The translations under genes were made by a program, and so were the position numbers. From NCBI RefSeq assembly GCF_009905375.1, contig NC_133655.1, positions 39,773,593-39,837,592 of the forward strand: 64,000 nucleotides of DNA. Reading direction: 5' to 3'. Positions 15,352-55,794 of this stretch are shown here, in pieces; position 1 is the stretch's first letter; each line of letters starts with the position of its first letter. The notes beneath the pieces were generated by a model. The model searched no databases. It was not told the DNA's origin and saw only the letters and a program-made list of their open reading frames with translations. This DNA comes from Apium graveolens (lineage: Eukaryota > Streptophyta > Magnoliopsida > Apiales > Apiaceae).

Positions 15352-15355
15352 GCCC

Positions 15356-16010: not shown

Positions 16011-16059
16011 CCTCCTTTATTTAGCTTTAATTTAGGGTATTGTATTTTCCAAATCCTAA

Positions 16060-16359: not shown

Positions 16360-16367
16360 TATATAAA
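16360..16367 (+). promoter_or_regulatory. TATA box of the Tat-E antisense gene
   Basis: TATATAAA lies 231 bp upstream of the ATG at 16591, followed by a short CT-rich leader and then a 5'UTR intron. Position and context suit an RNA polymerase II core promoter with a start site near 16390-16400. Confidence 0.6.
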
Positions 16368-16496
16368 GGAATGAGGAAAGGCTATTACTCCTCACTTTCT
16401 CATTTCTTTGTTTTCTTCTTCATCTTCCTGCTAAGATTCTCAGAGGAATAACAGCAAGTCGGAGCTCAAAGCCTTTTTTCAGGAGTGCTTCTTCAG

Positions 16497-16590
16497 GTAA
16501 GATTCCTCCCTTTGCTTTTCATTATTTTTCCATTGTGTGCCATTTTAAGATAGCCTATTTACGTGCCTCATACTTTTTTTTTTTTTTCAG
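16497..16590 (+). other. 5'UTR intron of the antisense gene
   Basis: Donor CAG/GTAAGA at 16494/16497 and acceptor TTTTTTTTTCAG ending at 16590, so the exon opens directly with the ATG at 16591. Length 94 bp, with a strong pyrimidine tract. Predicted from consensus only. Confidence 0.65.
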
Positions 16591-18533: not shown

Positions 18534-18868
18534 CTTCTTGTATATCTTTTTTTTTTGAACTTTATTTGTATCAGAACTTGTTACCCTTCGGGGTTATGTT
18601 TTATACGTTGCTTTTCTTGCCTTTTTCTGTTTTATCTTTACAATCTTAATATGCATTTGAACCTTAAACATCCTTAGATAGAAATAATTTCAAACTCTTT
18701 GATATGAAGTCTGGTTTTCCAAAACCTTACATAGCATGGGTTCGACCCTAATCAACAATAACTAGACAATGTAAATTCTACTGGAATATAAAATCCTATG
18801 CAAGCAAAGCTTCAAGGTGCTTTTAAACCTACTTGTCAATGACAAGTGAGAATCATACTTCTCCTATT
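18534..18868. other. Spacer between convergent antisense gene and gag-pol
   Basis: 335 bp of AT-rich sequence between the two stop codons. It probably holds the polyadenylation sites of the antisense transcript and part of the gag-pol 3' untranslated region. I saw no ORF and no clear repeat. Confidence 0.5.
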
Positions 18869-21800
18869 TTACACATAGTAAACCTTCAGGTTTTGTGCGT
18901 GCCAGGTCCTCGGGACTTCAAAACCTTCCATAGTTTCCAGCTTGTAGGTTCCTCTACCCTGAACGCTCTTGACTCTGTACGGCCCTTCCCAATTTGGGGC
19001 AAGCTTTCCTTTCTGTCCAACACCAGAAGCCTCTATTTTTCTCAAGACTAGATCTCCTTGTTTAAAAAATCTCTCTTTAACCCTTAGGTTGTAATAGAAT
19101 GAAGCCTTTTTCTGATATTCTACTATCTTTGCATGTGCCTCATCTCGCACTTCATCAATTAGATCCAGGGCTAACCTCTGCCCTTCCTCATTTTCTACAG
19201 CATTGAAAGTCTGAATCCTTGGAGAGGAATGTGATATCTCCACGGGAACTACTGCTTCTGCCCCATATGCCAACATGAAAGGAGTTGCTCCTGTCGTGAC
19301 TCTACAGGTAGTCCTATAGGCCCATAATATTGGAAGTATCTCATCCACCCAATTATTTCTTGACTTCTCGATCCTCTTTTTTAGTCCATCCAGGATTATC
19401 CGATTTGCTACCTCTGCTTGCCCATTGGCTTGCGGGTGAGCCACAGAGGTGAATCGTAACTCAATTTTATTTTCTTCACAATACTTCTTGAATTCCTCAT
19501 TGTTGAATTGTGTTCCATTGTCAGTGACGAGGATACGGGGAATTCCATATCGGCACATAATGTTTTCCCACAGGAATTGTGCAACCTGCTTAGTTGTGAT
19601 TTTGGCCAAGGGTTTGGCTTCGATCCACTTGGTGAAATAATCAATGGCTACAATCAGAAATTTCCTTTGTGCCGTGGCCATAGGAAAAGGCCCTAGAATA
19701 TCCATCCCCCACATGGCAAAGGGAATAGGCGAGTTGATAGAGGTCAGCATCTCGGGGGGTTGTCTAACAACTGGTGCATGCTTCTGACAGCGATCACACT
19801 TCTTCACATATTCTTTGGCATCAGCCATCATTTCTGGCCAATAGAAGCCTAAACGGGTTATTTTATGAGCCAAGGCCCTGCCCCCCAGGTGTTGTCCACA
19901 AATACCTTCATGTACTTCTTCAAGAGCCAAGCGTGCCTCATCGGGCCTGAGACACCTCAGGTAAGGAACCACGAAAGATCTTTTATATAGAATCCCATCT
20001 ATCAAAGAGTACCTTAGTGCTCGAACAGTTAACTTCCGTGCCTCAATTGCATCGCTTGGCAACCAACCGGTCTGAATGTGAGCCTTGATGGGATCAATCC
20101 ATGACGTCCCCAAGCCTACGGGAGCCACAAGCTTAACATCTATGCTTCGTGTCTTCAAAACACGGAAGTACACACTTCCTGAACTTTCTTCAATCTCAGA
20201 TGAAGCAAACTTTGATAGCGCATCTGCTTTAGCATTTTCTTCCCTTGGAATGTGTTCAACATGGCATTCATTAAATTGGGTCATCACAGCCCTTACTAGG
20301 CGAACATACTTAGCCATCGTATCATCCCTTGCCTCAAATTCTCCCTTTACCTGGGATATGATCAGCTTCGAGTCTCCACGGACCTTTAAGTTTTTGACTC
20401 TAAGTGTCCCAGCTAGACCAAGGCCAGCAATCAGGGCTTCATACTCTGCCTCATTGTTTGTTGTTGGGAAGTCTAGCTTCATGGCATACTCAATTAAGAA
20501 TCCATCAGGGCTTTGCAAAACCAACCCTGCTCCACTGGAATTTGTTTTTGATGCTCCATCAAAATAGAGAACCCAATATTCTTTCTCCTTGTCCCCATTG
20601 TCGACTCCCTTGTCTTGAGGTATGGTATCTTCCTGCCCCCCGACTTCTTGGTTGGGTATGGTACATTCCACCAGGAAGTCAGCTAGTGCCTGGGCTTTTA
20701 TGGCCGTACGTGGCTTATACTTGAGATCGAACTCTCCCAACTCTATTGCCCACTTAATCAGTCTCCCACTTGCCTTGGGACTGTGAATGATATTTCTCAG
20801 TGGCTGATTTGTTAGCACTTCAATTTGGTGAGCTTGAAAATAAGGACGCAGCTTTCTTGAAGCCATTACCAAGGCTAAAGCGAATTTCTCAATGGCTGAA
20901 TAATTCAACTCAGCACCATGCAAAATTTTGCTGACATAGTATACGGGTTTCTGGACTTTCAGTTCCTCCTTAACCAACACGGCGCTCAAGGCGCTCTCTG
21001 AAACAGCCAAGTACAAAAATAAAACTTCATTCAGAACTGGCTTGGCCAACAACGGGGCCTGGCCCATATATTTCTTTAACTCTTCAAATGCCTTCTGATT
21101 TTCCTCATTCCATACAAAGTCTTTGATGTTCTTCAGTGACTTGAAAAATGACAAGCACTTGTCTCCTGACTTGGAGATGAATCGTCCTAACGCAGCAACC
21201 CTTCCTGTGAGCTTCTGAACATCCTTGACAGTTTTGGGGGGTTCCATGTCCAGGATCGCCTTTATTTTATCGGGATTTGCCTCAATTCCCCTCTTCGAGA
21301 CCATCAATCCCAAGAACTTTCCAGATCCTACGCCGAAAGCACACTTCGTCGGGTTCAACATCATCTTGTGGTACCTCAGGACCTCAAAAGCTTCCCTTAA
21401 ATGGGCTATATGATCAGTCTTTACTAGACTCTTGACTAACATGTCATCAACATAGACTTCCATAGTCTTACCAATAAGATCCTTAAAAATTCTATTCACC
21501 AACCTTTGATAGGTGGCTCCTGCATTCTTGAGACCAAACGCCATAACAAGATAACAATAAACACCAAAGTCAGTGATAAATGATACCTTTGGAATGTCAT
21601 CCTTATGCATTTTGATCTGGTTGTATCCGCTAAACCCATCCATGAAACTCAGCATCTCATGTCCAGCGGTAGCATCAATCAAAGTATCAATTCTAGGCAG
21701 CGGAAAACAGTCTTTGGGGCATGCATCATTCAGATCGGTGAAGTCTATACACATCCTCCACTTTCCATTAGCCTTCTTCACCATTACAGGGTTTGCTAAC

Positions 21801-24574
21801 CACTCCGGAAATTGAATCTCCTCAATGAAACCAGCCTCTAAGAGCTTTTCCACTTCCTGCTTTATAGCCTCTTGTCTTTCCGGGGCAAAATTTCTTTTCT
21901 TTTGTTTCACTGTCTTCCGGCTTGGATCCACGTTTAGCTTGTGAGTAATTAACTCCGGGTCTATGCCTGGCATATCAGCTGCTGACCATGCAAACACATC
22001 ACTATTTTCTTGCAAAAATTTCACTAACTTCCCTCTAAGGGGCTCCTCTAATGTGGCTCCAATGAAAGTCATCCTCTCAGGATTCTTGGGATCTAAAGGA
22101 ACCGAAACCAATTCTTCTGCTGGCCTTCCTCTATTCTCATCATTTTCTCGAACATCCATATCTTCAATAGGAAGAACCTGCCCCCCGACTCCATCTGCCC
22201 TCAAAGAGGCCACATAACAGCTTCTAGCCATTTTTTGATCTCCTTTCTCTTCTCCAATCCCGTTTCGGGTGGGAAACTTCATGACTGAATGGTAGGAAGA
22301 GGGGACTGCCTTGAAGGCATGTATCCCTGTTCTCCCCATGATAGCATTATAAGTTGAACTAGCCTTTACCACCACAAAATCCAGCATCTGCGTTGCTTGC
22401 CTTGGCTCCGTACCTATGGTGGTTGGCAATTTAATTATCCCTTCCACAGGACATTCTACTCCAGCAAATCCATATATCGGCATGTCGGTTGGTGTCAACT
22501 GGGAGTCGTTATACCCCATCCTTAGAAAGGTGTCGTGGAGCAAGATATCCACAGAAGCACCATTATCCACAAGGACCCTCTTAACCGGGCTATTTCCTAT
22601 TATCGGCGTTATGACCAGCGGGTCGTCATGGGGAAACTTCACACCCTCTAGGTCGGAATCATCAAAAGCCAATGTTACTTCTGTCCTGGCCCTCTTCGGG
22701 GCTTCTCCAACAATATGCATAACCTCTCTAGTATATGCCTTTCTGGAATTTTTGGATAATCCAGCAGCAGTTGGACCTCCAAAGATCGTGTTTATCACAG
22801 GCCCTCGAGGTCTCGGCCCTCCATAAATGGTGTTTATAACTGGTCCTCTAGGTTGGGGATTCCGCCCCTGATCATCTTGGTCCCTCCTACGATCTTCAAA
22901 GTTCTTCCTTCCATTACTATTTCTGTCTCCTCCATCTCCAGTATACTTGTTCAATCTTCCTTTTCGAATCAAAAACTCAATTTCATCTTTCAACTGCCTA
23001 CACTCATCGGTGTCATGGCCAACATCTTTGTGAAACCTGCAATACTTGCCCTTATCTAGCTTGGCGGGATCAGCCTTCAAGGGCTTAGGCCAGCGAATAT
23101 CTCTGTCTTTCTCAATCTCCATCAAAATCTGACTTCTGGGAGCATTCAGCTTAGCGTATTCAGTGAACTTTTGCCCAGGTCCTCCCTTCTTGGGGGTTGA
23201 ATCAGGGTTTTGTTCAGTTCTAGGATATTTATCCTTAGCGATATACTCCAAATCAGTTTTTCGTTTCTTGCCTCCAGTGGGCTCATTACTTACTACGGTC
23301 TTCCTCATACTTTCTTCAACCTTGATATACTTCCCTGCCCTCTCTTGGAGCTGCAACATGCTCTCAGGGGGTCGTTTCACCAAAGACATCTTGAAAAACT
23401 CATCCCTAGTTCCTTGTTGCAGTGCTATCATGGCTACCTTATCATCAAGGTCTGGGACTTTTAAAGCCTCCTTTGTAAAACGATTCAGGTAATCTCTTAA
23501 GGATTCCTTAGCTCCCTGCACAAGACTCATAAGAGATGCTGAACTTTTCTCATGGACTCTTCCACTGATGAATTGCTTAATAAAAGCCTGACTTAATTCT
23601 CTGAATGATCCAATAGAGTTTGGGGGTAGGCGACTGTACCATCTTTGAGCCATACCCGACAGGGTTTGAGGAAAGGCCCGACATTTTATAGCATCGTTCA
23701 CGGGTTGCAGCAGCAGTGCATTAGAGAATGTTCTAACATGATTAGCGGGGTCTCCCGTGCCATCATAGGCTTTGATAGTGGGCATCTTGAATTTCCTTGA
23801 GATATGGGCATTCATTATCTCTTCTGTGAAGGGTGGAGTTGGATCATCAGGATCTCCAAGGGGAAGGAGATTGCTTGGATCAGTTCTTGGGACAACAGCC
23901 CTTCTTCTTGCCGGACCATCCAGGTCTATGATAGGAGGAGGATTTCTCCCCCTAGGAGGTATGTGGGGTCTGGTGGCTTGGTGAGCCTCCAAATCACGCC
24001 TCAGCCTTTGGATTTCAGCCTCATGAGCCCTGATCTTTTCCTGCACTTCTTGGGGATTCGCCCCTGGGGTGCTTTGGGGGCGTTGTCTTCCATCGGCCAT
24101 TGGCTCTTTTCCAGGACGCCTCCTTCTCGGGGCCACTTCATCATCCGAAGATTCGGAGTCTCTTTCAGTGTATGGACCAGAAAATTCCCGATCCTCAGGG
24201 ATAGGATCCAAACCTCGTATATAGGGGGGCGACCGCCCTCGTGCTTCGCTTCGCCCGGCATATCCGCTTCCTCCAACCTCAGGGTGAAGGGGCATCCCAT
24301 AAGGGGGGTTAGTAGTAACAATAGTTGAATATTCATACCCGACGGGTCGAGAATTTACAGGTATATGTATTTGTTGAACTTGAGGATTCGTACCTTGAAT
24401 AGTCGGGGGAGTTGTCCCTTGTGGCTGAGGATGAGTTGCCCCTGTCTGGGCTTCCCCCTGAGTAGATGCATAAGTTGAATGGGGAGGAACCTCCACGGTT
24501 GATGAAATCACCTGGGTTGTCCCTGATGGTGTTCCCTCCTCCAGAGTGCTGGTTGTTCTCCGTGTTCTCGCCAT
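18869..24574 (-). CDS. Tat-E gag-pol polyprotein, intact, 1,901 residues
   Basis: One uninterrupted frame. I start it at the ATG at 24574 (MARTRR...), 36 nt inside the LTR boundary and after the primer site; the frame also stays open upstream into the LTR. Order by approximate residue: proline-rich N terminus; gag core 285-460 (AYDGTGDPANH, RWYSRLPP); a C..H..H..C knuckle 511-527 (CRFHKDVGHDTDEC); protease near 669 (VLVDNGAS, with DNG where DSG is common); reverse transcriptase 900-1060, with YVDD at 1041; RNase H to about 1270; a second, archaeal-type RNase H 1330-1470 (YFDGASKTNSSGAG, NNEAEYEAL, ADALSKF); integrase 1556-1800 with HHCC zinc finger (CDRCQKH) and DDE core (MDILGPF, TDNGTQF); C-terminal tail (APNWEGPYRV). 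All catalytic blocks look whole. Dual RNase H places it in the Tat lineage. It makes the particle, copies RNA to DNA and integrates it. Confidence 0.95.
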   Translation of the reverse strand: MARTRRTTSTLEEGTPSGTTQVISSTVEVPPHSTYASTQGEAQTGATHPQPQGTTPPTIQGTNPQVQQIHIPVNSRPVGYEYSTIVTTNPPYGMPLHPEVGGSGYAGRSEARGRSPPYIRGLDPIPEDREFSGPYTERDSESSDDEVAPRRRRPGKEPMADGRQRPQSTPGANPQEVQEKIRAHEAEIQRLRRDLEAHQATRPHIPPRGRNPPPIIDLDGPARRRAVVPRTDPSNLLPLGDPDDPTPPFTEEIMNAHISRKFKMPTIKAYDGTGDPANHVRTFSNALLLQPVNDAIKCRAFPQTLSGMAQRWYSRLPPNSIGSFRELSQAFIKQFISGRVHEKSSASLMSLVQGAKESLRDYLNRFTKEALKVPDLDDKVAMIALQQGTRDEFFKMSLVKRPPESMLQLQERAGKYIKVEESMRKTVVSNEPTGGKKRKTDLEYIAKDKYPRTEQNPDSTPKKGGPGQKFTEYAKLNAPRSQILMEIEKDRDIRWPKPLKADPAKLDKGKYCRFHKDVGHDTDECRQLKDEIEFLIRKGRLNKYTGDGGDRNSNGRKNFEDRRRDQDDQGRNPQPRGPVINTIYGGPRPRGPVINTIFGGPTAAGLSKNSRKAYTREVMHIVGEAPKRARTEVTLAFDDSDLEGVKFPHDDPLVITPIIGNSPVKRVLVDNGASVDILLHDTFLRMGYNDSQLTPTDMPIYGFAGVECPVEGIIKLPTTIGTEPRQATQMLDFVVVKASSTYNAIMGRTGIHAFKAVPSSYHSVMKFPTRNGIGEEKGDQKMARSCYVASLRADGVGGQVLPIEDMDVRENDENRGRPAEELVSVPLDPKNPERMTFIGATLEEPLRGKLVKFLQENSDVFAWSAADMPGIDPELITHKLNVDPSRKTVKQKKRNFAPERQEAIKQEVEKLLEAGFIEEIQFPEWLANPVMVKKANGKWRMCIDFTDLNDACPKDCFPLPRIDTLIDATAGHEMLSFMDGFSGYNQIKMHKDDIPKVSFITDFGVYCYLVMAFGLKNAGATYQRLVNRIFKDLIGKTMEVYVDDMLVKSLVKTDHIAHLREAFEVLRYHKMMLNPTKCAFGVGSGKFLGLMVSKRGIEANPDKIKAILDMEPPKTVKDVQKLTGRVAALGRFISKSGDKCLSFFKSLKNIKDFVWNEENQKAFEELKKYMGQAPLLAKPVLNEVLFLYLAVSESALSAVLVKEELKVQKPVYYVSKILHGAELNYSAIEKFALALVMASRKLRPYFQAHQIEVLTNQPLRNIIHSPKASGRLIKWAIELGEFDLKYKPRTAIKAQALADFLVECTIPNQEVGGQEDTIPQDKGVDNGDKEKEYWVLYFDGASKTNSSGAGLVLQSPDGFLIEYAMKLDFPTTNNEAEYEALIAGLGLAGTLRVKNLKVRGDSKLIISQVKGEFEARDDTMAKYVRLVRAVMTQFNECHVEHIPREENAKADALSKFASSEIEESSGSVYFRVLKTRSIDVKLVAPVGLGTSWIDPIKAHIQTGWLPSDAIEARKLTVRALRYSLIDGILYKRSFVVPYLRCLRPDEARLALEEVHEGICGQHLGGRALAHKITRLGFYWPEMMADAKEYVKKCDRCQKHAPVVRQPPEMLTSINSPIPFAMWGMDILGPFPMATAQRKFLIVAIDYFTKWIEAKPLAKITTKQVAQFLWENIMCRYGIPRILVTDNGTQFNNEEFKKYCEENKIELRFTSVAHPQANGQAEVANRIILDGLKKRIEKSRNNWVDEILPILWAYRTTCRVTTGATPFMLAYGAEAVVPVEISHSSPRIQTFNAVENEEGQRLALDLIDEVRDEAHAKIVEYQKKASFYYNLRVKERFFKQGDLVLRKIEASGVGQKGKLAPNWEGPYRVKSVQGRGTYKLETMEGFEVPRTWHAQNLKVYYV

Positions 24575-24592
24575 GGTTGTTGTTCCGTTTTT

Positions 24593-24608
24593 CCCACAGA
24601 CGGCGCCA
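24593..24608 (-). other. Primer-binding site of Tat-E
   Basis: On the minus strand TGGCGCCGTCTGTGGG begins two bases inside the LTR end at 24611. The TGGCGCC start is the reverse complement of a tRNA 3' end GGCGCCA and is the form usual in Tat-lineage elements. Confidence 0.9.
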
Positions 24609-24610
24609 AA

Positions 24611-25179
24611 TGTTATGGATAAAAAACCAAGGTTATTACTTGTTGTATTTAATACTAAGATTCGGGAGCTCAAGGCCTTTAATGGCTGCTCTCGTGTTTC
24701 GTGACTCAATCTGCCTTTACGAGATGCCTACGTATCTCTGTGAATTAGAGAATCAAGCCAAAAAACGTAGTTCTGATTTGTGGGGTGAGACCCCTTATAT
24801 AGATGTTGGTGGTCCTTGAATTGGACTTGGTATAGGAGACTTGGTGGGCAAGTCTCATAATTAGAATGGACTTTGGAGTCCTAGATAGTAGGAAACTGAT
24901 TCCTTATCCTTTTAGGTCCCCTTGAGGCTTATCTATAAGGATTTATATCCTTATCAGGACTCTTCTCAACAGCTGATTTTTCCCTTATTAATTAATTACG
25001 AAATTAATTAATAATCAGGGCTTTTGGGCCATTTTTATTCGACCAGACCTGATCTGGTCCATCAGGCTTAACCTTTCTGGTCTGAGTATCATATATCTTT
25101 TTATTGGGCCTGGCAGCCCACAGTTTGTACAATTAATGCAGTATTTAATTATACAAACATAATTTATTTATCCCTATCA
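24611..25179 (-). repeat. Tat-E 5' LTR (569 bp)
   Basis: Same sequence as 14368-14936 with a single mismatch. On the minus strand, TATATAAGG (24801-24793) is the likely TATA box, which places the RNA start near 24765 and leaves roughly 150 nt of R plus U5 before the primer site. The right flank CCGAG (25180-25184) is the second TSD copy. Confidence 0.95.
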
Positions 25180-31600: not shown

Positions 31601-32698
31601 CTTGAACCCCAATAGAAACTTTACCTTGATACCTAAAAGCCAGATATTCTTCAAAGTTGTTCTTAATTGATTGATAACCCTTTTTCTTACCCTAAAGTTC
31701 GACAATCCTGATATACCTTGAGCTAAAAATCATTTCTTCATATCTTAACACCCCTAGTATTCATGAAGCTTATCTTCTTGATGTTCTAGTACTTGTACCT
31801 TGTCGAAAACCATTGCTATAAGCCTAGTTTGGCATTACTCTTTCATATTATCCAAGAGCCTTGCTAAATCTCCTTGTCAAAGTTCTTGTATATGGAAACC
31901 TTTCAATTACCTTAATATAGTAAAGTCTAGTGGATCATGGCCCTGAAATTTGGTGACATATTTCCAGTGTTTCAAAGATGATCTATAATCCCTTGATAAA
32001 AATGTTTACTACTTAAGAGATTTTATTATAAATTGGCATCAGTTTTTGAAATGATTAAAATGTGGATTTTCAGTCCCAAAGGGGGGTAAATGTTTTCTTT
32101 GAATAGTGGATCTGGACTGAGACGCGAGTCCTTTCCACACTTATATTGTAGGCTTAAAATTTTCCTAGGTATCCCATTAATGTTTTAGAACCCAGCGAGG
32201 TTCGGGATTACTTCGCGGCTGATCACCGGCTGTAATCCGTAGCGTCATAAAATGATTTTGATTAAGTTATGATTTTGAAAATGTTTTGATTCAAGCAAAT
32301 GATTCCATCACCCAAAATTTCATCTCTTGTTATTATTAGTTATATCTTCACATTGTCATTCTTTAATATATATCTCGATTTATGTTTCGTATCATACCGT
32401 TTAGCACTTGTTGAGCATTTGGCTCACTCCTTGCTTTAACCCTGATATTACAGTTAGTAGCTATGATTAGATTCAAGCAGACATCACGTAAGACTTGTGA
32501 CGCCGATGCGTATGTCCGAGCTCAAATAGAATAAGAGATAGTTTTGTGTGAGGATTCAATATTAAAATCAGTTGTAATAGTTGGTAGTGTTGGGCTGTTC
32601 CAAACCCTAAACTGTAAGATCTTGGATTCGGTTATATTTACTTTCTTTTAAATATTGTAATAGTTATATATTTTGTTTGTTATGTTGGGGGTGTGACA
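28678..32698 (+). repeat. Tekay-D 3' LTR, full length, 4,021 bp
   Basis: Starts TGTTACGACC after the polypurine tract and ends GGGTGTGACA before TSD TATGA. No long ORF. Conserved with the Tekay-F LTR (reverse strand 32743-50733). Includes an exon-like segment 31209-31296 bounded by TAG and a GC-type donor (AAG/GCAAGT), and a second small exon from 32454 with the histone-tail-like ORF at 32463. The remaining AT-rich sequence, about 29,300-31,200, shows no gene. Confidence 0.92.
32463..32534 (+). CDS. Histone H3-tail-like mini-ORF in Tekay-D LTR (decayed copy)
   Basis: 23-codon ORF beginning MIRFKQTSRKT; H3 begins MARTKQTARKS, so R2, K4, Q5, T6, R8 and K9 coincide. An acceptor-like ATTACAG ends at 32453, nine bases before the ATG. 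At the position where the related copies have a donor (CAG/GTAGT), this copy reads CAAATAG, so the donor is lost and the frame stops two codons later. Too short to identify as a gene by itself; supported by parallel copies in Tekay-F and Tekay-G. Confidence 0.45.
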   Translation: MIRFKQTSRKTCDADAYVRAQIE

Positions 32699-32919: not shown

Positions 32920-32991
32920 CTGAGCTCGAACATATGAATCGGCATCACAAGTCTTACGCGCTGTCTGCTTGAATTTAACCATATCTGCTAG
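32920..32991 (-). CDS. Histone H3-tail-like exon in Tekay-F LTR
   Basis: On the minus strand an acceptor TTATATTTCAG ends at 32992 and a donor CAG/GTAGTT follows at 32920/32919. The ATG at 32982 opens 21 codons in phase 0 up to the donor, beginning MVKFKQTARKT. KQTARK is identical to H3 residues 4-9, and the match sits at the N terminus as in H3. If the donor is not used the frame continues to a stop at 32863 (40 residues). Its downstream partner exon would be in the Tekay-F leader, of which only the last codons survive at 55731-55793. Confidence 0.5.
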
Positions 32992-33771: not shown

Positions 33772-33776
33772 TAAGG
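33772..33776. repeat. Target-site duplication TAAGG of Tekay-G, left copy
   Basis: TAAGG precedes the LTR at 33777 and recurs exactly at 47973-47977 after the other LTR. Confidence 0.95.
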
Positions 33777-34694
33777 TGTAACGACTGAGAATTTTGCGTC
33801 GTAATTAAGAAAATAAAGTATGTGTTATGTGATGAGATTATAATTATGTGACTAAGTGATGATTATTTGTCTTATCTGTATACTAGAGTTTAGGAGCGTG
33901 AATAAAATTGTTCCAATTTAAAGAGTCAGCTTAGAAATTAAGCTTGGTGTCGGGCCGTCAGGTAGAACGGAACCCATTCTAATATGGAAATTAAATAATA
34001 TAAAATGAGAGTTATATGTGAAGTGAATGAATAAATTATTTCGTCTTAAGAGACGTGTTGATTGGCAAAGATAATGAGAAGCATAATCGAAACGCTGAGC
34101 GTCGGGCCGTCAGGCTGAACGTGACCCGGTACGCGTAAAAGAGGATAAGGATTAAAGAGGGATATATTCTATGATCAGACCTGAGTCGTTATGTGACTAT
34201 ATGTGTGTGATTGCTTGACTGTGTGCATGACTATGTGTTCTGTGTCAATTTTGTGAATTTTAACGGAATTACGTGATTTAAGTAAAGGTTTAATTAACCT
34301 TAGCGCATTTTTATAAAATCATCCGAGAAAGATAAAAACATGGGATTTGTTTTGTTACCTTCGTAATGATCCTAGAGACTTTTTAAAAATAATAAGTGAA
34401 TTTGATTGTTGATCTTTGTATTTTAAATCAATTTTATGTGGAAATTGTATTTATTAACGCAAGTTTGCGAAATTCATATAAAATCAACCGTTCACTCAAA
34501 TTCTTATTATGAGTAATGGATAAAAAGCTAATTTCGAGGCCTACGTGTTAAAATTGTCATTTTCAATAATCCTTGACTTTTCGAGAGAGAAATATTTTTA
34601 TTTTGAATTTCGTTGCATTTGAGTAAAAAGAGAAAGAAAGTGCAAATTAAAAAGGGAGTTATTAGATTACCATTTTGCCCTTGTGTTGGTGGAG

Positions 34695-34700
34695 TATAAA
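34695..34700 (+). promoter_or_regulatory. TATA box of Tekay-G LTR promoter
   Basis: TATAAA, followed about 65 bp later by a (CT)n-rich stretch of the kind common in plant 5' untranslated leaders. The same box is at 44696 in the 3' LTR. Inferred start near 34725. Confidence 0.6.
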
Positions 34701-36380
34701 TGACTCCTTCCTCCTCATTTTCTTCTTTCTTTTCCGTGCACTCACTCTTTTCTCTCCTTTTTTTCTTTCACTCTCTCTCTCTCACTCGAACAACTCTCTC
34801 TCGGCTCTCTCTTCAATCTCTCTCGGTATACCTCCTTTTTCCTTGATCAAACTCATCAATCATCCCTAATTCTTCTTGCTAAACACTTATGTATAGGTAG
34901 AAGTATATGCATGTGTGTGATTAGGCTTGCATGCCGAAGTGTGTGTGTGTTTTTGGGTTCGGTTTTGAGCCAAGAATCGAGGGCTTGCTTGATTAGTTTG
35001 TATCATATGATTATTGTGCTGAAATCAGTTTGCATGTGGTGTTGATGCAGTTCTTTTGAGAAATCGGGGGTTTCGTGGTTGGACACCCTCGAATGAGGGC
35101 ACCACCGTGAAGCCACCGCCACCGGTGATGAACTCCGGTGAACCGGTGGTGAGCTATGATGTTAAAAACTGAGCTCTAGAACCTTAAGATCACTTATTTA
35201 TGTTTGCATGTGGTGTTTTGATTAAAAGGCCGAATGGCCCTTACTATTTTAAGGAAATCAAGTTGATTATATTGAAATGCATGAGTCATTGAATTGATAT
35301 TGAAATATAGGTGGATTTGTGATTCAAGGATTAAGAATATCAAGTTGCATGATTGTTTTTGAAAAAAGCCGAATGGTTTTAATCTTTAAAGTTGTTTGAT
35401 TTGAATTAACTTGTTTAAAATAATGATGGATTGTTATTAGATTAGAAATGAATGAAATTATTGTTGCATGCTAAGTTTAGGTTCGAATTTTTGTGTTAAT
35501 AAGAAAGGAAATTGATTTTTGTGAGATAATCTTGGTAAACACTAAGTATAAATAGCCTAAAAGTGATTGCATGCTAGTTTTAAAGAGGATCAAGATGTGC
35601 ATGTCATTGATTTGTCCTTGAGAAGTAAAATTGAGTTTTTCCGAATTAAATTAAGTTAAAAAGGGACTAATTTGATGAATAAATGGATGCATGTTGTGAT
35701 TTAGGTGAAAATCGATTGTGTTAAGAAACTTAGTTGGCTTACTTGATAAAGATAAAGTGTTTGATATCATGACAAGTTAAAATTGAATTGCATGCGCGCA
35801 AGTATGTATGATTTGTCTCAAATTTTTTATGATTAAAATGAAGAAGGATGATACTTTAATAGCTTTGAATGAGTTGTGTGTATGTATGTGAGTTAAAGTG
35901 AGAATTTGGTTAATTTTGTGTGATAAGGCCGAATAGGCCATAAGGAATGAAAGTCAAATTACTTGGTTTTTATGATTAAAAGGATGATTGAAAGTGTATA
36001 AGTAAATATTTAGGAATTTGTTGCTTGATTATAGTATGTGGCTGGAATTAAGGATCAAAAGAAAATGGAACTAAGTTGATTGATATAAGTGATGGTTATG
36101 AACATAAATGTTTGGTTGTGATTAGGTCTTGTACTCGTAAAAGAGTCATGTTAGTTTGATTTGAGAAATAGCCAAGGTCAAGCGAGTACGCTTTGATTGC
36201 TAAGTATATAAGGATATAAAAGCTACGAGAAAGGATTATGCTATGTGCTAAGTGCTATGTGCTTATATGTACAAGCTATATTCGTATGCTCGAGTCAAGG
36301 ATATAATCGAGTTATCGTATAGTGTGATCATTCCGGGAACGAGAGTTGGGAATCTAATTAATATTTTGGTTTTATTGTAG

Positions 36381-36464
36381 ATTCGGAGCGTGAGAGCATT
36401 CAGTCTAGGAAAGGAAAGGAATTACTAGGTGGCAGTAGTTCAACCCTCAGGAAAGCAAATTCAG
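36381..36464 (+). other. Leader exon candidate with GC-type donor in Tekay-G LTR
   Basis: 84 bp bounded by acceptor TTTTATTGTAG (ends 36380) and donor TCAG/GCAAGT (36464/36465). The counterpart in the Tekay-D LTR is 31209-31296 with AAG/GCAAGT, and a related donor is in Gypsy-A at 9083/9084. GC-AG introns are a minor but real class in plants. Inferred intron 36465-37640. Confidence 0.4.
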
Positions 36465-37020
36465 GCAAGTAACTCTGATTACTTGTGTAAATGATTATAA
36501 GGGAAATGTTGTTCATACCATGTAGAGTATTGAACTGTTTAAGCATGAAACCCTTGTTTTATGAGACCCATATTTTATGAAACCCTGTTATTGATTTAAA
36601 GAATCCCTATTCTTGATAACCTGTTATTGATAAGCCTATTGATTTCACTCATTGATAACCTGACCTTTCTGTTCAAGTTACCTATAATGCCATGAATCAT
36701 ATTGAACCTATTGATTATCTTGGTTAACCCTGTTTAATGATATTCTGTTTCTCTTAATCACCCTATTGATCCCTAAATCAATGTTTATCCTTCTAATTTG
36801 GTGCCTTGTTATCATTGACACGGAATTTTTGTGAATTGTTCCTTGCGTATCTTTGATTCACTCCCTGAACTTCGTTTCTTTAAAATCTGATTTAAAATGA
36901 GTTTCGACTTGAAAGAGTCTGAATGATTTCAAATGCTTGGTAATGATAAAATGAATTTTAGAAAACCTATTTGTTTTTCCAACTCAAGGTTTTCCAAATG
37001 AATTCCTGATGGATTGAGAC

Positions 37021-37082
37021 GTAAGAGGCTAGTGGGACTAGTCCAGTCATGGTAAGAGGCTAGTGGGACTAGTCCAATTTAA
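37021..37082. repeat. Two-copy repeat with palindromic core in Tekay-G LTR
   Basis: GTAAGAGGCTAGTGGGACTA is present twice about 31 bp apart, each copy containing the perfect 10-bp palindrome GGACTAGTCC. The block is kept in the 3' LTR (46992-47050). Confidence 0.75.
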
Positions 37083-37640
37083 GGCTGAAATTATGCCGAT
37101 TGGTACCTTAAAGACCGGAATGAAGGTCGATACGGGCTGATCACCCGTATATAATGAAATGGAAAGATAAAGTGATCCAATCAAGGGTTCTAATTGATTA
37201 TTTAAAAGGGAACTGAAACCTTTATTCAGTAAATTGATATTGGAAATGAAAATGGTTTATATTGCCTTGAAAAGATTTGATTATGTTATTGTGGACCTTA
37301 GAGCTCGAGAACCCTGATTCTTGAAATTGTTGATCATATCATTGATTATATCTTGAAATACTGTTGCTTTCCTCTATCAAAAGATCTATTTTGATCCTAT
37401 AATGATTTGTGATGAATGTCGGCTTTCGTCCTGTTTCGAGCCTTGTTTCTTGAAAGCCCTACTATTCTTCAGATACCTTTCTTTATCCCAGAAAAAAAAT
37501 GGAAATCTGCCACCTAGATTAATTAAAGTAGAATGCCCTAGTTGGTTCAAAGTATGTTGAGATTTGATATTGTAGAACTGCTATATAGTTACTTGCTGAG
37601 TTTTATACTCATTTGTTTTATCTTAATCTAACCATGGTAG

Positions 37641-38243
37641 TTAAGGAAGAAGATGGCCAGGCTTAGGCGCACTGCTCGTAAGAGCGTACCTGGTGGTCCC
37701 TACCGTGTTGAGGGCTTCTGGTTGCCACAGCAGGTAGTGGTTTTTATGAGTGAGCTCGCGCCTAGAAAGAGGTGTATAAAGATACACTGGGTTATCTGTC
37801 GGTTCCTAGCCGGAATCGATATTGATTATTTAATAATATTTTGGGTTTGTAAGTTATATCTTGTGATTGGTAGTTGTAATCTTGTCTCATACTTTATCCT
37901 GTTGATCCTATTAGTAGTTAATCGGGGTTTATTCATATTTAATTATTAGATTAGAGGTGTGTGAGTCCTCATTCCCTAACCCCGAGATTGAGGGTGTCAC
38001 AAATTGGTATCAGAGCTACAGGATCTAGTCCCTGAGACATGTTAGGTTTTAAAAAGGGTATTTTGGGAATATATCTATATCGTGAGAGAGTTCGACTCAT
38101 GTAGAGTTGAGTTAGACTATTAGGTATAGTCTAAGGAAAGTGTTGATTGGTAAAGTGGAAACTAGAGTTAGGGTGTGAGTTAGCTGGAAGCTTTATTTAA
38201 CCCTAACATTGTTTCTTGGTTGCTATTTTGTATTTTCTCTCAG
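37641..38243 (+). CDS. Histone H3-tail-like exon of Tekay-G (exon plus following intron)
   Basis: The exon is 37641-37733: acceptor CATGGTAG before it, ATG at 37653, then 27 codons in phase 0 up to donor CAG/GTAGTG at 37733/37734. The peptide opens MARLRRTARKS and continues VPGGPYR; H3 opens MARTKQTARKS followed by TGG, so A1, R2, T6, A7, R8, K9 and S10 coincide and a GG pair follows. The intron 37734-38243 (510 bp) would cross the LTR end and the primer site, with acceptor TTTTCTCTCAG. Splicing joins phase 0 to phase 0 with the leader ORF at 38244. If unspliced, the frame runs to 37949 (98 residues). A second copy lies in the 3' LTR at 47625-47705. Predicted from sequence only. Confidence 0.5.
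38005..38016 (+). other. Primer-binding site of Tekay-G
   Basis: TGGTATCAGAGC, complementary to the initiator methionine tRNA 3' end, starts three bases after the LTR end. Confidence 0.92.
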
Positions 38244-38738
38244 GATCCTAGTAGTGGTAGTGACTCAGACTCTGAGATTAGCTTGACTGGTACCCCTGTG
38301 GACCCCGTTCCACCCTCTCCAGAGGAGTATGTGTATGTTAGTTCAGACCCAGAGGAGGACCCTTCTGAGAGTAGTGAGATCCCCATGCAGATTTCACCCC
38401 TGAGCCCAGATTCAGAGACCCCTGCCCCTGAGCCAGAGTCGGAGATTCCTAAGACTGTTCCTGTCAGTGTTGGTGGCAAGTTAGCCCAGGACCGAGACTT
38501 TGTGTACTCCCGCATTCCTGAGTTGGGAGCTTTGGTGGATAGACTAGCCAGAGAGTCTAGGCAGAGTGCTTCTGTTATGGATGATGAGTGGCGAGTTCGG
38601 GTGAAGATGGTGGAGCAGGTTGCGAGGAGGAGATTGGATGAGGGACCATCCACTAGTGATGCTGATGCTAAGGCCCGGAGGCTGCATAAGATCATTCGCT
38701 GGATGGTGGTTATGTTGAGAGAGATTCTAGATGATTAG
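38244..38738 (+). CDS. Tekay-G leader ORF: acidic protein, predicted exon 2 of the H3-tail-like gene
   Basis: 164 open codons before the TAG at 38736. The frame also reads upstream from 38220 without an ATG, which fits an internal exon opened by the CAG ending at 38243. The first 80 residues are acidic and rich in Ser and Pro (SSGSDSDSE, DPEEDPSESSE, EPESE). The last 80 are helical and basic-amphipathic (RIPELGALVDRLARE, DDEWRVRVKMVEQVARRR, RRLHKIIRWMVVMLREI). No known domain recognised. It lies between the primer site and gag, ending 547 bp before the gag ATG. A related C-terminal end (IVKTLREEK...) may survive in Tekay-F at 55731-55793. Joined to the LTR exon it would give 191 residues. Unlike gag-pol of this element it has no lesion. 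Confidence 0.6.
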   Translation, partial: DPSSGSDSDSEISLTGTPVDPVPPSPEEYVYVSSDPEEDPSESSEIPMQISPLSPDSETPAPEPESEIPKTVPVSVGGKLAQDRDFVYSRIPELGALVDRLARESRQSASVMDDEWRVRVKMVEQVARRRLDEGPSTSDADAKARRLHKIIRWMVVMLREILDD

Positions 38739-39285
38739 ATGGGACCGTTGGTTGAGCCCGTAGATTGTTGTTGTTATTTTCAACGCCAGTAGGCTTTGGG
38801 ATACTTGGTCAGATGCCGGGATCCATTTTTCATTTATCTCGTTGTATTTCAGACCAGTGTAGTAGTAGTAGTAGTTGGAAGTTAGGGGTAGATAGGGGGA
38901 TGTTTTCTGGTTTTTCCTCTGTTTAACCCTGCTATTTATTGTACCTTATTTCAGAACCCTAATATCCAGAATATTCCCTATGTAACCTTTGATTAAATAA
39001 ATCTATTATATTGCTTTCCTTTGTGCACCTTGATTATCTTATAAACTGTTCTCAATGCCATGTTTTAAATACAACCATGTTTTCGTATAACCATGTTTAA
39101 AGGTAATAAAACCCTATTCTGTGCCATGATAAAACAACACTGATATGAGAATTATGTAGTAATAGGATTGCATGTGCAAATTGGGTAAAACTTAAAACCC
39201 ACAAAAGAGATTTCATAAAAATTGTTGTTATATATATGCCATGCTATCGTATTGCTAAATAATTGCTCAATCAGGTTTGTAAGAA
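38739..39285 (+). other. Tekay-G untranslated leader before gag
   Basis: 547 bp, AT-rich, with several stop codons in each plus-strand frame. I see no gene; it is probably leader RNA with packaging signals. A short TAG repeat lies at about 38862-38876. Confidence 0.5.
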
Positions 39286-42200
39286 ATGGCCAACTCACCA
39301 GATCACCAAGAAGAAGAAATTCCCACCCAAGACCCAGAAATAAACCCAGAAACCACTATGATGAGCATACTTGCTCAACTTTTGCAACAACCTGTGGCCC
39401 CAAAAGTTGGAAATTTCAAGCACTTTCAATCTATTCATCCTCCAGAGTTCTTAGGTTTGCCAGACCTGATTAAAGCGCAGTCGTGGTTGAGAGAGATGGA
39501 AAAAGCCTTTGAGTTAGAAGAAGTTAAGGATGATAAGAAAGCTCAGTACGCAAGTTATTATCTGAAAGATGAAGCAAGTTTCTGGTGGGGGTCGTCTAAG
39601 GCATTGTTGGAAGGAAAAGACTTATCTTGGGAGAAGTTTACCGAGATGTTTCTGGAAAAGTATTTGCCAAGCTATATGCAAGATCAGTTGGAGATGAAAT
39701 TCTTGGATCTTAGACAGGAGGAAATGTCGCTAGCAGAATATGAGGTGAAGTTTTCGGAATTGTCAAGGTTCGTACCTGAGTACATGAATACTGAAGTAAA
39801 GAAGGCTAAGAGGTTCCAGCAGGGACTTAAGCCGTGGATTAGGAGTCAAATAGCAATGTTGGAGATCAAGAACTATGCTGCATTGGTTCAGAAAGCAATG
39901 ATAGTGGAAGGTGAGCGGGAAGCTGCTCGAAGAGAAAATGAAGGAAGAAAGAGGAAGTTTGAAAGCTCTGAGCAAGAGAAAGGAAGCTCAAAGTTCAGAG
40001 GGAAGTTTGGGAAGAATGGTGGAGGTCAGAACCAAAAGTTCCAGAAGTTTAGACCCGGGAATGGAGCTCAGAAGAACCGTTTCCAGAAAGCTGGACAACC
40101 GGGAAAGGATAGCAGACCCCAGATGCAAGAATGAAGGAACTGTGGAAAGAGACACCCAGGGAGGTGTAATAAGCTAGACATAACATGTTTTAAGTGCAAC
40201 CAGAAGGGGCATTATTCTTCAGAATGTTCAAATGGAGTAAGGAAACCTGATTTGGCCTGTTTCAAGTGTGGCAAAGTGGGCCATATGGCTAGAAATTGTA
40301 AGGAGCGTGTGGAGAAGGCTAATGTTCTCAGAATTACTGGACCGCCGTCTCTCCCAGCACCATCAGCTCAACCCAGAGCTAGAACCTTTAACATGACAAT
40401 GAAAGACGCGGTGCAAGATGTGGACGTGGTAGCAGGTATGCTTGTTATAAACTCAGTAGAAGTACAAGTTTTGATGGATTCTGGAGCAACTAGATCTTTT
40501 ATCTCTGAAAGTATTCTTGATAAGTTAAATTGTGTTGCGTACCCTCTAGAGCCTAATTTGATTATAGAGGTAGCAAATCAAGAGAAAGTTGTTGTTAATA
40601 AGATTTGCCCTGATTGTGATGTGTCTATAGAAGGTCGACACTTTTCTGCTGACTTAATTCCTTTTAAGTTAGGAGAATTTGAGGTTATACTAGGAATGGA
40701 TTGGTTGTCAAACCATAAGGCGCAAATAGAATGTAAAAGTAAGAAAGTGAAGTTAAGAACCAAGGATGGTGAAGAAGTGATATTTAAAGGAAAGAGGCAA
40801 GAGAAGAAATTTCTAATGGCTATTGAGGCGAGAAGATTAATACGTCAAGGATGCGAAGTTTATTTGGCTAATGTCGTAGACGTGGAAAAAGAATCGGTAA
40901 AGATCGATGATATTCCGGTAGTAAGAGATTTTCCGGACGTGTTTCCTGATGAATTGCCTGGGCTACCTCCAGACAGAGAGATCGAGTTTACGATTGACTT
41001 GGCTCCTGGTACGGAACCAGTATCGAAAGCTCCCTATCGCATGGCGCCGGTTGAAATGAAGGAATTGGAAGCTCAGTTACAAGAGTTGTTGGACAAAGGA
41101 GTAATCCGACCGAGTGTATCCCCGTGGGGCGCACCGGTGTTGTTTGTAAAGAAAAAGGGTGGAAGCATGCGATTGTGTATCGATTATCGTGAGCTGAATA
41201 AGTTGATGACAAAGAATAAGTACCCTCTACCGCGGATCGATGATTTGTTCGACCAATTGAAAGAGCTTCGTGTTTTTCAAAAATTGATCTAAGATCTGGG
41301 TATCATCAATTAAAGATCAAAGAGGAAGATATACCCAAGACAGCGTTCCGAACAAGATACGGACACTATGAGTTTTTAGTGATGGCATTTGGCTTAACGA
41401 ATGTGCCAGCTGCATTTATGGATCTTATGAACAGAGTGTTCAAGCAGTGTTTGGACAAGTTCGTGATTGTGTTTATCGACGATATACTGATTTACTCCAA
41501 GATGGAAGAAGATCATAAGGAGCATTTGAGGATTTCCTTGGAAATTCTGCGAAAAGAGAAGGTGTATGCAAAGTTTTCAAAGTGTGAATTTTGGCTAAAG
41601 GAAGTGCAATTTCTTGGTCATGTAGTCAATAAAGAAGGAATTAAAGTGGACCCAGCCAAGATAGAAGCTGTAATGAATTGGGAAAGACCCAAGACTCCGA
41701 CGGAAGTCAGAAGTTTTCTTGGATTAGCCGGATACTATAGAAGATTTGTGCAAGATTTCTCAAAGATTGTCGTTCCGTTGACAAAGTTGACCAGAAAGAA
41801 TGAGAAGTTCGTTTGGACAGAAAAGTGTGAGGAAAGTTTCCAAGAGTTAAAGAAGAGATTGGTAACCGCCCCAGTGTTGGTATTACCAGATGATAAAGGG
41901 GAATTTGTGATATTCAGTGATGCTTCATATAAAGGACTTGGATGCGTGTTAATGCAACACGGGAAGGTAATAGCATATACGTCAAGGAAACTCAAGCCGC
42001 ATGAGCAAAAGTATCCAACGCACGATTTGGAATTGGCAGCAATTATATTTGCCCTTAATATTTGGAGGCATTATTTGTACGGGGAAATGTGCGAGATTTA
42101 CGGACCATAAGAGTTTAAAGTATATCTTTACTCAGAAAGAACTGAATATGCGACAAAGAAGGTGGTTGAAATTGATCAAAGATTATGATTGTGCGATAAA

Positions 42201-43831: not shown

Positions 43832-46800
43832 TGTAACGACTGAGAATTTTGTGTCGTAATTAAGAAAATAAAGTATGTGTTATGTGATGAGATTATAATT
43901 ATGTGACTAAGTGTTGATTATTTGTCTTATCTGTATACTAGAGTTTAGGAGCGTGAATAAAAATGTTCCAATTTAAAGAGTCATCTTAGAATTTAAGCTT
44001 GGTGTCGGGCCGTCAGGTAGAACGGAACCCAACCTAATATGGAAATTAAATAATATAAAATGAGAGTTATATGTGAAGTGAATGAATAAAGTATTTCGTC
44101 TTAAGAGACGTGTTGATTGGAAAAGATAATGAGAAGCGTAATCGAAATGCTGAGCGTCGGGCCGTCAGGCTGAACGTGACCCGAGTCGTTATGTGACTAT
44201 ATGTGTGTGATTGCTTGACTGTGTGCATGACTATGTGTTATGTGTCAATTTTGTGAATTTTAAAGGAATTACGTGATTTAAGTAAAGGTTCAATTAACCT
44301 TCGCGCATTTTTATAAAATCATCCGAGAAGGATAAAAACATGGGATTTGTTTTGTTACCTTCGTAATGATCCTAGAGACTTTTTAAAATTAATAAGTGAA
44401 TTTGATTGTTGATCTTTGCATTTTTAAATCAATTTTATGTGGAAATTGTATTTATTAAAGCAAGTTTGCGAAATTCATATAAAATCAACCGTTCGCTCAA
44501 ATTCTTATTATAAGTAATGGATAAAAAGCTAATTTCGAGACCTACGTGTTAAAATTGTCATTTTCAATAATCCTCGACTTTCCAAGAGAGAAATATTTTT
44601 ATTTTGAATTTCGTTGCATTTGAGTAAAAAGAGAAAGAAAGTGCAAATTAAAAAGGGAGTTATTAGATTACCATTTTGCCCTTGTGTTGGTGGAGTATAA
44701 ATTACTCCTTCCTCCCTATTCTCTTCTTTCTTTTGCGTGCACTCACTCTTTTCTCTCCTCTTTTTCTTTCACTCTCTCTCTCTTACTCGAACAACTCTCT
44801 CTCGGCTCTCTCTTCAATCTCTCTCGGTATACCTCCTTTTTCCTTGATCAAACTCATCAATCATCCCTAATTCTTCTTGCTAAACACTTATGTATAGGTA
44901 GAAGTATGTGCATGTGTATGATTAGGCTTGCATGCCGAAGTGTGTGTGTGTTTTTGGGTTCGGTTTTGAGCCAAGAACCGAGGGCTTGCTTGATTAGTTT
45001 GTATCCTATGATTATTGTGCTGAAATCAGTTTGCATGTGGTGTTGATGCAGTTCTTTTGAGAAATCGGGGGTTTCGTGGTTGGACACCCTCGAATGAGGG
45101 CACCACCGTGAAGCCACCGCCACCGGTGATGAACTCTGGTGAACCGATGGTTAGCTATGATGTTAAAAACTGAGCTCTAGAACCTTAAGATCACTTATTT
45201 ATGTTTGCATGTGGTGTTTTGATTAAAAGGCCGAATGGCCCTTATTATTTTAAGGAAATCAAGTTGATTATATTGAAATGCATGAGTCATTGATTTGATA
45301 TTGAAATACAGGTGGATTTGTGATTCATGGATTAAGAATATCAAGTTGCATGATTGTTTTTGAAAAAGGCCGAATGGTTTTAATCTTTAAAGTTAATTGA
45401 TTTGAATTAACTTGTTTAAAATGATGATGGATTGTTATTAGATTAAAAAGGAATGAAATTATTGTTGCATGCTAAGTTTAGGTTCGAATTTTTGTGTTAA
45501 TAAGAAAGGAAATTGATTTTTGTGAGATAATTTTGGTAAACACTAAGTATAAATGGCCTAAAAGTGATTGCATGCTAGTTTTAAAGAGGAGCAAGATGTG
45601 CATGTCATTGATTTGTCCTTAAGAAGTAAAATTGAGTTTTTCCGAATTAAATTAAGTTAAAAAGGGACTAATTTGATGAATGAATGGATGCATGTTGTGA
45701 TTTAGGTGAAAATCGATTGTGTTAAGAAACTTAGTTGGCTTACTTGATAAAGATAAAGTGTTTGATATCATGACAAGTTAAAATTGAATTGCATGCGCGC
45801 AAGTATGTATGATTTGGCTCGAATTTTTTATGATTAAAATGAAGAAGGATGATACTTTAATAGCTTTGAATGAGTTGTGTGTATGTATGTGAGTTAAAGT
45901 GAGAATTTGGTTAATTTTGTGTGATAAGGCCGAATAGGCCATAAGGAATGAAAGTCAAATTACTTGGTTTTTATGATTAAAAGGATGATTGAAAGTGTAT
46001 AAGTAAATATTTAGGAATTTGTTGCTTGATTATAGTATGTGGCTGGAATTAAGGAGCAAAAGAAAAGGGAACTAAGTTGGTTGTGGATAGGTCTTGTACT
46101 CGTAAAAGAGTCGTGTTAGTTTGATTTGAGAATTAGCCAATGTCAAGTGAGTACGCTTTGATTGCTAAGTATATAAGGATATAAAAGCTACGAGAAAGGA
46201 TTATGCTATGTGCTAAGTGATATGTGCTTATATGTATAAGCTATATTCGTATGCTCGAGTCAAGGATATAATCGAGTTATCGTATAGTGTGATCGTTCCG
46301 GGAACGAGAGTTGGGAATCTAATTAAGATTTTGGTTTTATTGTAGATTCGGAGTGTGAGGGCATTCAGGCTAGGAAAGGAAATGATTTACTAGGTGGCAG
46401 TAGTTCAACCCTTAGGAAAGCAAATTCAGGCAAGTAACTCTAATTACTTGTGTAAATGATTATAAAGGAAATGTTGTTCATACCATGTAGAGTATTGAAC
46501 TGTTTAAGCATGAAACCCTTGTTTTATGAGACCCATGTTTTATGAAACCCTGTTATTGATTTAAAGAATCCATGTTCTTGATAACCTGTTATTGATAAGC
46601 CTATTGATTTCACTCATTGATAACCTGACCTTTCTGTTCAAGTTACCTATAATGCCATGAATCATATTGAACCTATTGATTATCTTGGTTAACCCTGTTT
46701 AATGATATTCTGTTTCTCTTGATCACCCTATTGATCCCTAAATCAATGTTTATCCTTCTAATTTGGTGCCTTGTTATCCTTGACACAGAATTTTTGTGAA

Positions 46801-47972
46801 TTGTTCCTTGCGTATCTTTGATTCACACCCTGAACTTCGTTTCTTTAAAATCTGATTTAAGAATGAGTTTCGACTTGAAAGAGTCCGAATGATTTCAAAT
46901 GCTTGGTAATGATAAAATGAATTTTAGAAAACCTATTTGTTTTTCCAACTCAAGGTTTTCCAAATGAATTCCTGATGGATTGGATTGAGATGTAAGAGAC
47001 TAGTGGGACTAGTCCAGTCATGGTAAGAGGCTAGTGGGACTAGTCCAATTTAAGGCTGAAATTATGCCGATTGGTACCTTAAAGACCGGAATGGAGGTCG
47101 ATACGGGCTGATCACCCGTATATAATGAAATGGAAAGATAAAGTGATCCAATCAAGGGTTCTAATTGATTATTTAAAAGGGAACTGAAACTTTTATTCAG
47201 TAAATTGATTTTGGAAATGAAAATGGTTTATATTGCCTTGAAAAGATTTGATTATGTTATTGTGGACCTTAAAGCTCGAGAACCCTGATTCTTGAAATTG
47301 TTGATCATATGATTGATTCTATCTTGAAATACTGTTGCTTTCCTCTATCGAAAGATCTATTTTGATCCTATAATGATTTGTAATGAATGTCGGTTTTTGT
47401 CCTGTTTCGAGCCTTGTTTCTTGAAAGCCCTACTATTCTTCAGATACCTTTCCTTATCCCAGAAAAAAAAATGGAAATCTGCCACCTAGATTAATTAAAG
47501 TAGAATGCCCTAGTTGGTTCAAAGTATATTGAGATTTGATATTGTAGAACTACTATATACTTACTTGCTGAGTTTTATACTCATTTGTTTTGTCTTAATC
47601 TAACCATGGCAGTTAAGCAAGAAGATGGCCAGGCTTAGGCGCACTGCTCGTAAGAGCGTACCTGGTGGTCCCTACCGTGTTGAGGGCTTCCGGTTGCCAG
47701 AGCAGGTAGTGGTTTTTATGAGTGAGCTCGCGCCTAGAAAGAGGTGTATAAAGATACACTGGGTTATCTGTCGGTTCCCAGCCGGAATCGATATTGATTA
47801 TTTAATAATATTTTGGGTTTGTAAGTTATATCTTGTGATTGGTAGTTGTAATCTTGTCTCATACTTATCATGTTGATCCTGTTAGTAGTTAATTGGGGTT
47901 TATGCATATTTATTTATTAGATTAGAGGTGTGTGAGTCCTCATTCCCTAACCCCGAGATTGAGGGCGTCACA
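43832..47972 (+). repeat. Tekay-G 3' LTR, 4,141 bp
   Basis: Matches 33777-38001 throughout, apart from scattered substitutions and two gaps. The H3-tail-like exon is kept at 47613-47705 with the same ATG, the same first 22 residues and the same CAG/GTAGTG donor; here the acceptor is a better CATGGCAG. ORFs at 44676-45046 are CT-tract translations. Confidence 0.95.
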
Positions 47973-47977
47973 TAAGG

Positions 47978-55421: not shown

Positions 55422-55794
55422 GATCCTGAAATAAAAGTTATATCAAAACAGGTATGAACAATACAGAAAATTTCAAGGTTAAGGTGTCACAAGTCATTAT
55501 ATTCATTCAATCGGATTTCAAATTAAAAAATAAGGGTGATGCATATAAAAGCATAAGAATAATTGAAAGCAAATAAAACGATACTACATAATTATCGAAA
55601 TTAGGGTCAAGGTACATCAAGATTGGAATAGAGTCTGAATCTATTGATAACATGCTTAATTAAAGGAAACAACAGGGAATTCTATAAAGTCCAACAATAA
55701 AATGACATGAAAAGTAGATAATGGAAAGAACTAAGGCTCCACTCCATCTGAACGGGGTCTGGTAGTCTTCTCTTCACGAAGCGTCTTAACAATG
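55422..55794 (-). other. Tekay-F leader remnant with end of a leader ORF
   Basis: AT-rich leader upstream of gag. On the minus strand 55793-55731 is open as about 20 codons (IVKTLREEK...DGVEP) ending in TAG. It resembles the final MVVMLREI part of the Tekay-G leader ORF in position and weakly in sequence. It is cut on the right by SIRE-H at 55795. Confidence 0.45.

Follow-up and report, generated by a model that had tools for sequence, protein, structure and literature searches.

An additional open reading frame, ORF0 or 5′aORF, has been known in long-LTR plant retrotransposons since the rice elements were described, without a function being attached to it. In Retrosat2, RIRE3, RIRE8, maize Tekay and sunflower Tekay 13-2 this frame lies between the 5′ LTR and gag, the LTRs exceed 3 kb, and the ORF is poorly conserved, disordered and helical, as far as the available passages of PMC3485330 and PMC11728184 describe it. 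The celery elements analyzed here have all of these traits, and their ORF is likened to the published ORF0s by position and character, not by sequence homology. According to the accessible portion of PMC3485330, ORF0s differ down to 7.6% identity and were found by Gao et al. only in grasses; the kind extends to asterids through sunflower (PMC11728184, available in part) and celery. The end of the F-type celery LTR, GGGCGTGACA, is the end printed for Retrosat2 and RIRE8 in that portion of PMC3485330. The celery ORF0 has a first exon located within the LTR and a start that resembles histone H3, neither of which is described for the published ORF0s in the available text of PMC3485330 and PMC11728184, where the word "histone" occurs 0 times. 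Our search of open-licence papers found no LTR-encoded exon or H3-like start of an ORF0 and no element-encoded H3 mimic in plants, which is not proof of novelty.

The window, by which we mean the whole 64,000-nt stretch of celery DNA that was analyzed, contains the element G, inserted inside the 3′ LTR of a second element, F, which lies on the minus strand (self-comparison and ends). The 5′ LTR of G, with TGTAAC...GTCACA ends, spans 33777..38001 (+) and its 3′ LTR 43832..47972 (+), as delimited by blastn self-comparison and inspection of the ends. They are 94.9% identical over 4233 columns and are flanked by a TAAGG target-site duplication (33772..33776 on the left, 47973-47977 on the right). 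An exact match to the primer-binding site TGGTATCAGAGC is found at 38005..38016 (+). It is followed by gag (Retrotrans_gag, 39283..40134, +) and by a pol region that extends up to 43791 in several broken frames. Pfam searches with pieces of G, D (a third element of the window) and F recovered gag, protease, RT/RNaseH and integrase in Ty3/gypsy order. The chromodomain PF00385 appeared in G at residues 225-270 with an E-value of 0.058 and 13.8 bits, below the 25.1 cut-off, and was not found by Pfam in the D piece; a divergent group II chromodomain would give such a sub-cut-off score. The elements that host the exon are presumably Tekay-type Ty3/gypsy elements of celery, a name supported by the Retrosat2-like LTR end of an F-type copy. 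In IMG/VR, a degenerate F-exon pattern gave 0 matches and the G pol piece had no relative. The window also holds a nested Ty3/gypsy element on the minus strand (14362-25179), with LTRs 99.5% identical over 575 nt and a single open frame of 1952 aa from stop to stop, whose first ATG, at 24574, reads MARTRRTTSTL.

An earlier note had placed in the LTR of G an exon beginning MARLRRTARKS, and its coordinates, frame and donor were as claimed: exon 1 of the 5′aORF, MARLRRTARKSVPGGPYRVEGFWLPQQ, occupies 37653..37733 (+) within the 5′ LTR and ends in phase 0 at the donor GTAGTG at 37734. The announced repeat of the exon in the 3′ LTR was found at 47625..47705 (+; MARLRRTARKSVPGGPYRVEGFRLPEQ), as were the counterparts in F (32982..32920, −; MVKFKQTARKTCDADSYVRAQ, donor GTAGTT) and D (32463..32525, +; MIRFKQTSRKTCDADAYVRAQ, with the GT donor lost). 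Because the exon lies inside the LTR, each element carries two copies of it, of which only the one in the 5′ LTR could be spliced to exon 2. The H3-like start is present in G, F and D, but since their LTR ends are homologous it does not represent three independent events. The GG pair noted after the start of G is offset, at residues 13-14 as against 12-13 in H3. Identities to H3 residues 1-10 after the Met number 7 in G, 6 in F and 6 in D. Among the 2395 ATGs of the window a score of at least 6 was reached only in G (twice), F and D, and among 98,456 ATGs in 40 first-order Markov windows 8 reached 5 and none reached 6, figures to be read with the knowledge that the finding itself was picked for its H3 likeness and that the families too were noticed through it. 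An inverted repeat with a 5-bp stem, TGAGT-TTTAT-ACTCA (37597..37611, +), precedes the exon ATG of G by about 40 nt, and a second copy of it lies at 47569-47583. An out-of-frame ATG at 37634 (MVVKEEDGQA, then a stop) overlaps the exon start in both LTR copies of G and was not seen in the other families compared.

The claim that LTR families carry the exon at an equivalent position held, and two more families, t3 and t4, joined them. In a grid sample of one further contig (20 × 10 kb, 7700 ATGs), 15 ATGs had at least 4 H3 matches or the T/RK pattern. Six of these were LTR exons: two of F-type (7/10), one of t3 (6/10; MARLQQTQRKRVGSVPRLPVDDVAAIAAE, starting MARLQQTQRKR) and three of t4 (4/10 each; MNMTKLPIRKRSGN..., MNRTKLPICKRLGN... 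and MNRTKLPIRERIGN...). Four others came from an unrelated repeat that also scores 4-5 and has an in-frame stop in three of the four; by itself, therefore, a score in that range says little. The variant MARLKQTQRKR, with 7/10 H3 matches, occurs in the celery gene models P0046, P0053, P0059 and P0069. In t4 the start reads MNRTKLPIRKR, or ends in RER; T6 and A7 are lost and K9 is lost in many copies, the gene models having E (e.g. P0044, P0058) or K (P0048, P0057) at that position. The protein searches, a method that requires shared 5-residue words, reached celery only, their matches being named Apium in 24 of 28, 6 of 6 and 48 of 53 cases, and are no evidence of absence from other plants.

The LTR ends of G, F/D, t3 and t4 align around the ATG and a common inverted repeat, which differs between families on both arms (TGAGT..ACTCA in G, TGAGC..GCTCA in F/D, GGTGGGC..GCTCACC in t3/t4) and lies near 61 nt before the ATG in a t3 and a t4 locus (L042, L045). 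Scanning the window and the contig sample for this repeat, blind to H3, gave 16 matches, 10 of which had an exon ATG 53-61 nt downstream, namely the four window exons and the six exons of the sample; the pattern was drawn from these families and the scan is, to that extent, not independent of them. The other 6 matches, without an exon ATG, included both LTRs of the nested element. Isolated repeat pieces of G, F/D and t3/t4 folded with −4.3, −5.9 and −11.8 kcal/mol (z −3.6, −1.6 and −4.1), and the repeat is possibly a leader or polyadenylation-site hairpin.

Exon 1 of G, 27 codons up to CAG|GTAGTG, is followed by a proposed intron (37734..38243, +) that comprises the LTR end, the primer-binding site and the leader, with a GTAGTG donor and a CAG acceptor in phase 0 on both sides. 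Beyond it lies an in-phase exon 2 of 164 codons (38244..38735, +; stop at 38736-38738), so that the two exons form a 191-aa ORF before gag. The celery gene model P0001 (RefSeq LOC141682795 isoform X3) has an equal 27+164 layout and 87% identity over the whole length; this protein had no Pfam match, and against PDB only weak matches, to apolipoprotein A-IV (E 0.048). In the F-type locus L035, exon 1, primer site, acceptor and exon 2 all fall within 0.75 kb, and the AgCh models P0029, P0031 and P0032 join F-type exon 1 to exon 2. The exon 2 sequences of F and G are 28% identical over 72 residues (pairwise BLASTP E 4e-4). A remnant of F exon 2 in the window, IVKTLREEKTTRPRSDGVEP (55793..55734, −), covers only the last 20 residues, 19 of which match P0029. 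Exon 1 is apparently spliced to exon 2, and the reading of the LTR exon as the first coding exon of a 5′aORF (ORF0), and not of gag or pol, is well supported. In the t3 and t4 models, exon 1 is likewise followed by what by eye is an acidic stretch, with exon 1 leading directly into it in the t3 NCBI models P0061, P0062 and P0066, and a heptad-like helix comes after it in the t3 models P0059 and P0066. The 5′aORF protein has a short basic start, followed, as judged by eye, by an acidic stretch and then a helical, probably coiled-coil part.

The two exons were also recovered elsewhere in the genome. We retrieved 20 G loci through an exact match to the initial 33 nt of the exon, and each had a GT donor; exon 2 was found by pattern in 12 of them and was open through 164 codons in 8 of the 12. 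Nine copies of G exon 2 gave a pS of 0.138 and a pN of 0.048 (pN/pS 0.35). When F exon 2 was searched against the genome, 7024 first-look candidates came up, and the 150 that were scored were 98-99% identical, 148 of them without a stop. When 20 F loci were picked by exon 2 alone, exon 1 was present in every one, 377 nt upstream and with the donor GTAGAA; 19 started with MVRFKQTARKT, the remaining copy having C at R8. The F copies picked in this way are young, so they show integrity and not long-term selection. The initial 33 nt of the G exon have 1658 exact occurrences in the 3.33-Gb genome, compared with 35 and 3 for the 33-mers that begin 6 and 38 nt beyond the donor, but these counts carry no weight in the argument because the flank of the window copy may be private.

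To measure the likeness to H3, we built a profile from five raw exons, those of G, F and D in the window, the t3 exon of L042 and the t4 exon of L030, which has E at K9. It gave 130 matches among 177,635 PDB sequences, with a best E-value of 2.9e-4 that is not a clean probability, since the rows were chosen via H3 likeness. The best 60 of the 130 matches were H3 chains or H3-tail chimeras, aligned Met on Met, and the H3 alignment extended to profile position 14-16. A profile of chosen forms gave 135 matches, the best with an E-value of 6.8e-5. When residues 2-11 of the five rows were permuted with three seeds, few as permutations go, 0, 4 and 0 PDB matches were obtained and none was a histone, the four being SV40 and other VP1 proteins (best E 0.83). 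Residue order, not composition, makes the H3 match. Neither the F exon nor the G exon alone matched anything in PDB by phmmer at E-values up to 10. The H3-like motif of these exons is beyond chance and in register with the histone. Different H3 residues are retained in different families: A1 in G and t3, K4 and Q5 in F, and T3 and K4 in t4. With A or V as the second residue the Met could be removed, as in H3; by that rule D (I) and t4 (N) would retain it.

The earlier note had set protein-level conservation against conservation of the DNA only, and in the celery families the former was borne out among G, F/D and t3, but not between t3 and t4. The first 11 codons were compared in the seven pairings of G, F/D (three copies) and t3, which gave a pS of 0.50-0.89 and a pN of 0.22-0.31, although each pairing offers only some 7 synonymous sites and the pairings are not independent; a pN so far below pS indicates that the protein is constrained. 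Synonymous variety was seen at T6 (ACT/ACA/ACC), A7 (GCT/GCG/GCC) and R8 (CGT/CGC). By contrast, t3 and t4 differed at 15 of 33 letters of the exon start, with a pS of 0.45-0.50 and a pN of 0.44-0.46, and t4 paired with G, F and D gave a pN of 0.41-0.49 and a pS of 0.51-0.91. The t3 (L042) and t4 (L045, L048) LTRs are 97-99% identical 100-200 nt upstream of the ATG, 91% identical in the last 100 nt before it and 71-77% identical over 120 nt downstream (2 pairs). Either fast change or diversifying selection, or else a recombination edge near the ATG, may account for exon 1 of t4. Conservation of the peptide at the protein level in three of the four celery families (the G, F/D and t3 groups) is supported, and the assignment of the LTR exon to an aORF under selection is well supported.

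Two alternatives bear on these substitution patterns. In one, only the DNA would matter, as a leader, splice donor or promoter signal, and the frame would be incidental. In its favor, the donor and the upstream inverted repeat are conserved; within G (29 copies, all picked by the exact exon start), the 60 nt before the ATG (0.083) are about as invariant as codons 12-27 (0.070), while the downstream LTR stands at 0.157. Codons 12-27 of G show a slight third-position excess (0.080 versus 0.066 and 0.064). However, third positions are near-saturated between families while the residues are kept, and the ORF runs in phase into exon 2; we consider this explanation highly improbable. Alternatively, an LTR could have picked up the start of a host H3 coding sequence, of which a decaying relic would now provide a translation start only. 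A match that begins exactly at the Met and reaches profile position 14-16, with retained H3 residues that vary by family, is consistent with such an origin; synonymous changes far outnumber non-synonymous ones in three families, unlike in a relic, and beyond residue 13 or so the families align neither with one another nor with H3. We consider a captured relic unlikely.

We find it plausible, with a probability of roughly one half, that the H3-like start of the 5′aORF exon serves as a histone mimic. The start would be kept because H3-tail readers or modifiers bind it, and, on element RNA, on particles or on chromatin, the aORF protein could serve as their decoy or bait. Candidate partners would be H3K9 methyltransferases or R2/K4/K9 readers, and t4 would have left the mimic function. 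Mimicry is favored by the families keeping different H3 residues while R8-K9 stays, and is disfavored by the divergence of t4 (4/10, many with E at K9). It is possible, although we lean against it, that the peptide is instead a generic basic one, used in nuclear import or RNA/DNA binding and shared by descent, its H3 likeness being the luck of a common ancestor. Tekay aORF proteins of other plants are predicted to be nuclear, in the available part of PMC11728184, t4 keeps R and K residues and not T6, A7 or always K9, and the gag of the unrelated nested element of the window begins with MARTRRTTSTL. On the other hand, the G, F, D and t3 copies examined show no K at R8 and no R at K9, an exchange that charge alone would permit; the survival of different H3 residues in different families and the failure of permuted columns of equal composition to retrieve a histone also speak against it. 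Returning to mimicry, its fullest form, in which a true H3-tail mimic would open a dimerising nuclear aORF protein that intercepts the silencing H3K9 (or H3R2/K4) machinery, and in which t4, its peptide far more diverged than the LTR directly upstream, would reflect an arms race or a switch to another target, is put forward tentatively and is less likely than not.

The ARKT site of the methyltransferase G9a is a histone mimic. EZHIP, as described in the accessible part of PMC12713659, and the celery exon likewise have a short H3-like motif in a non-histone protein. Unlike those of EZHIP and G9a, the putative celery mimic is encoded by a mobile element and is N-terminal in the H3 register. Extra ORFs thought to act on host epigenetic control are also found in an orchid Ty3/gypsy lineage, which encodes an AlkB-type demethylase (PMC12786077, available in part), and in Vandal elements, whose aORFs counter RdDM (PMC11728184, in part). 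In the same sources, function is demonstrated for the AlkB-type and Vandal proteins, which are unrelated to the celery aORF protein and its hypothetical role. An H3-like N terminus present in thousands of copies offers a first concrete and cheap functional hypothesis for ORF0; if true, it would be a plant element-encoded histone mimic and a new route of retrotransposons to heterochromatin. The celery exon also shows that coding exons can lie in LTRs, so that other elements whose aORF is annotated as starting in the internal region may have a truncated start.

Many celery gene models (P0009, P0014-P0026, P0028, P0030, P0035-P0086) start with or contain LTR exons fused to host exons or to those of other elements, the partners including an ARF GTPase, ribosomal protein L29 and kinase pieces, among others. 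Such fusions are either chimeric transcripts driven by the LTRs or artefacts of the annotation.
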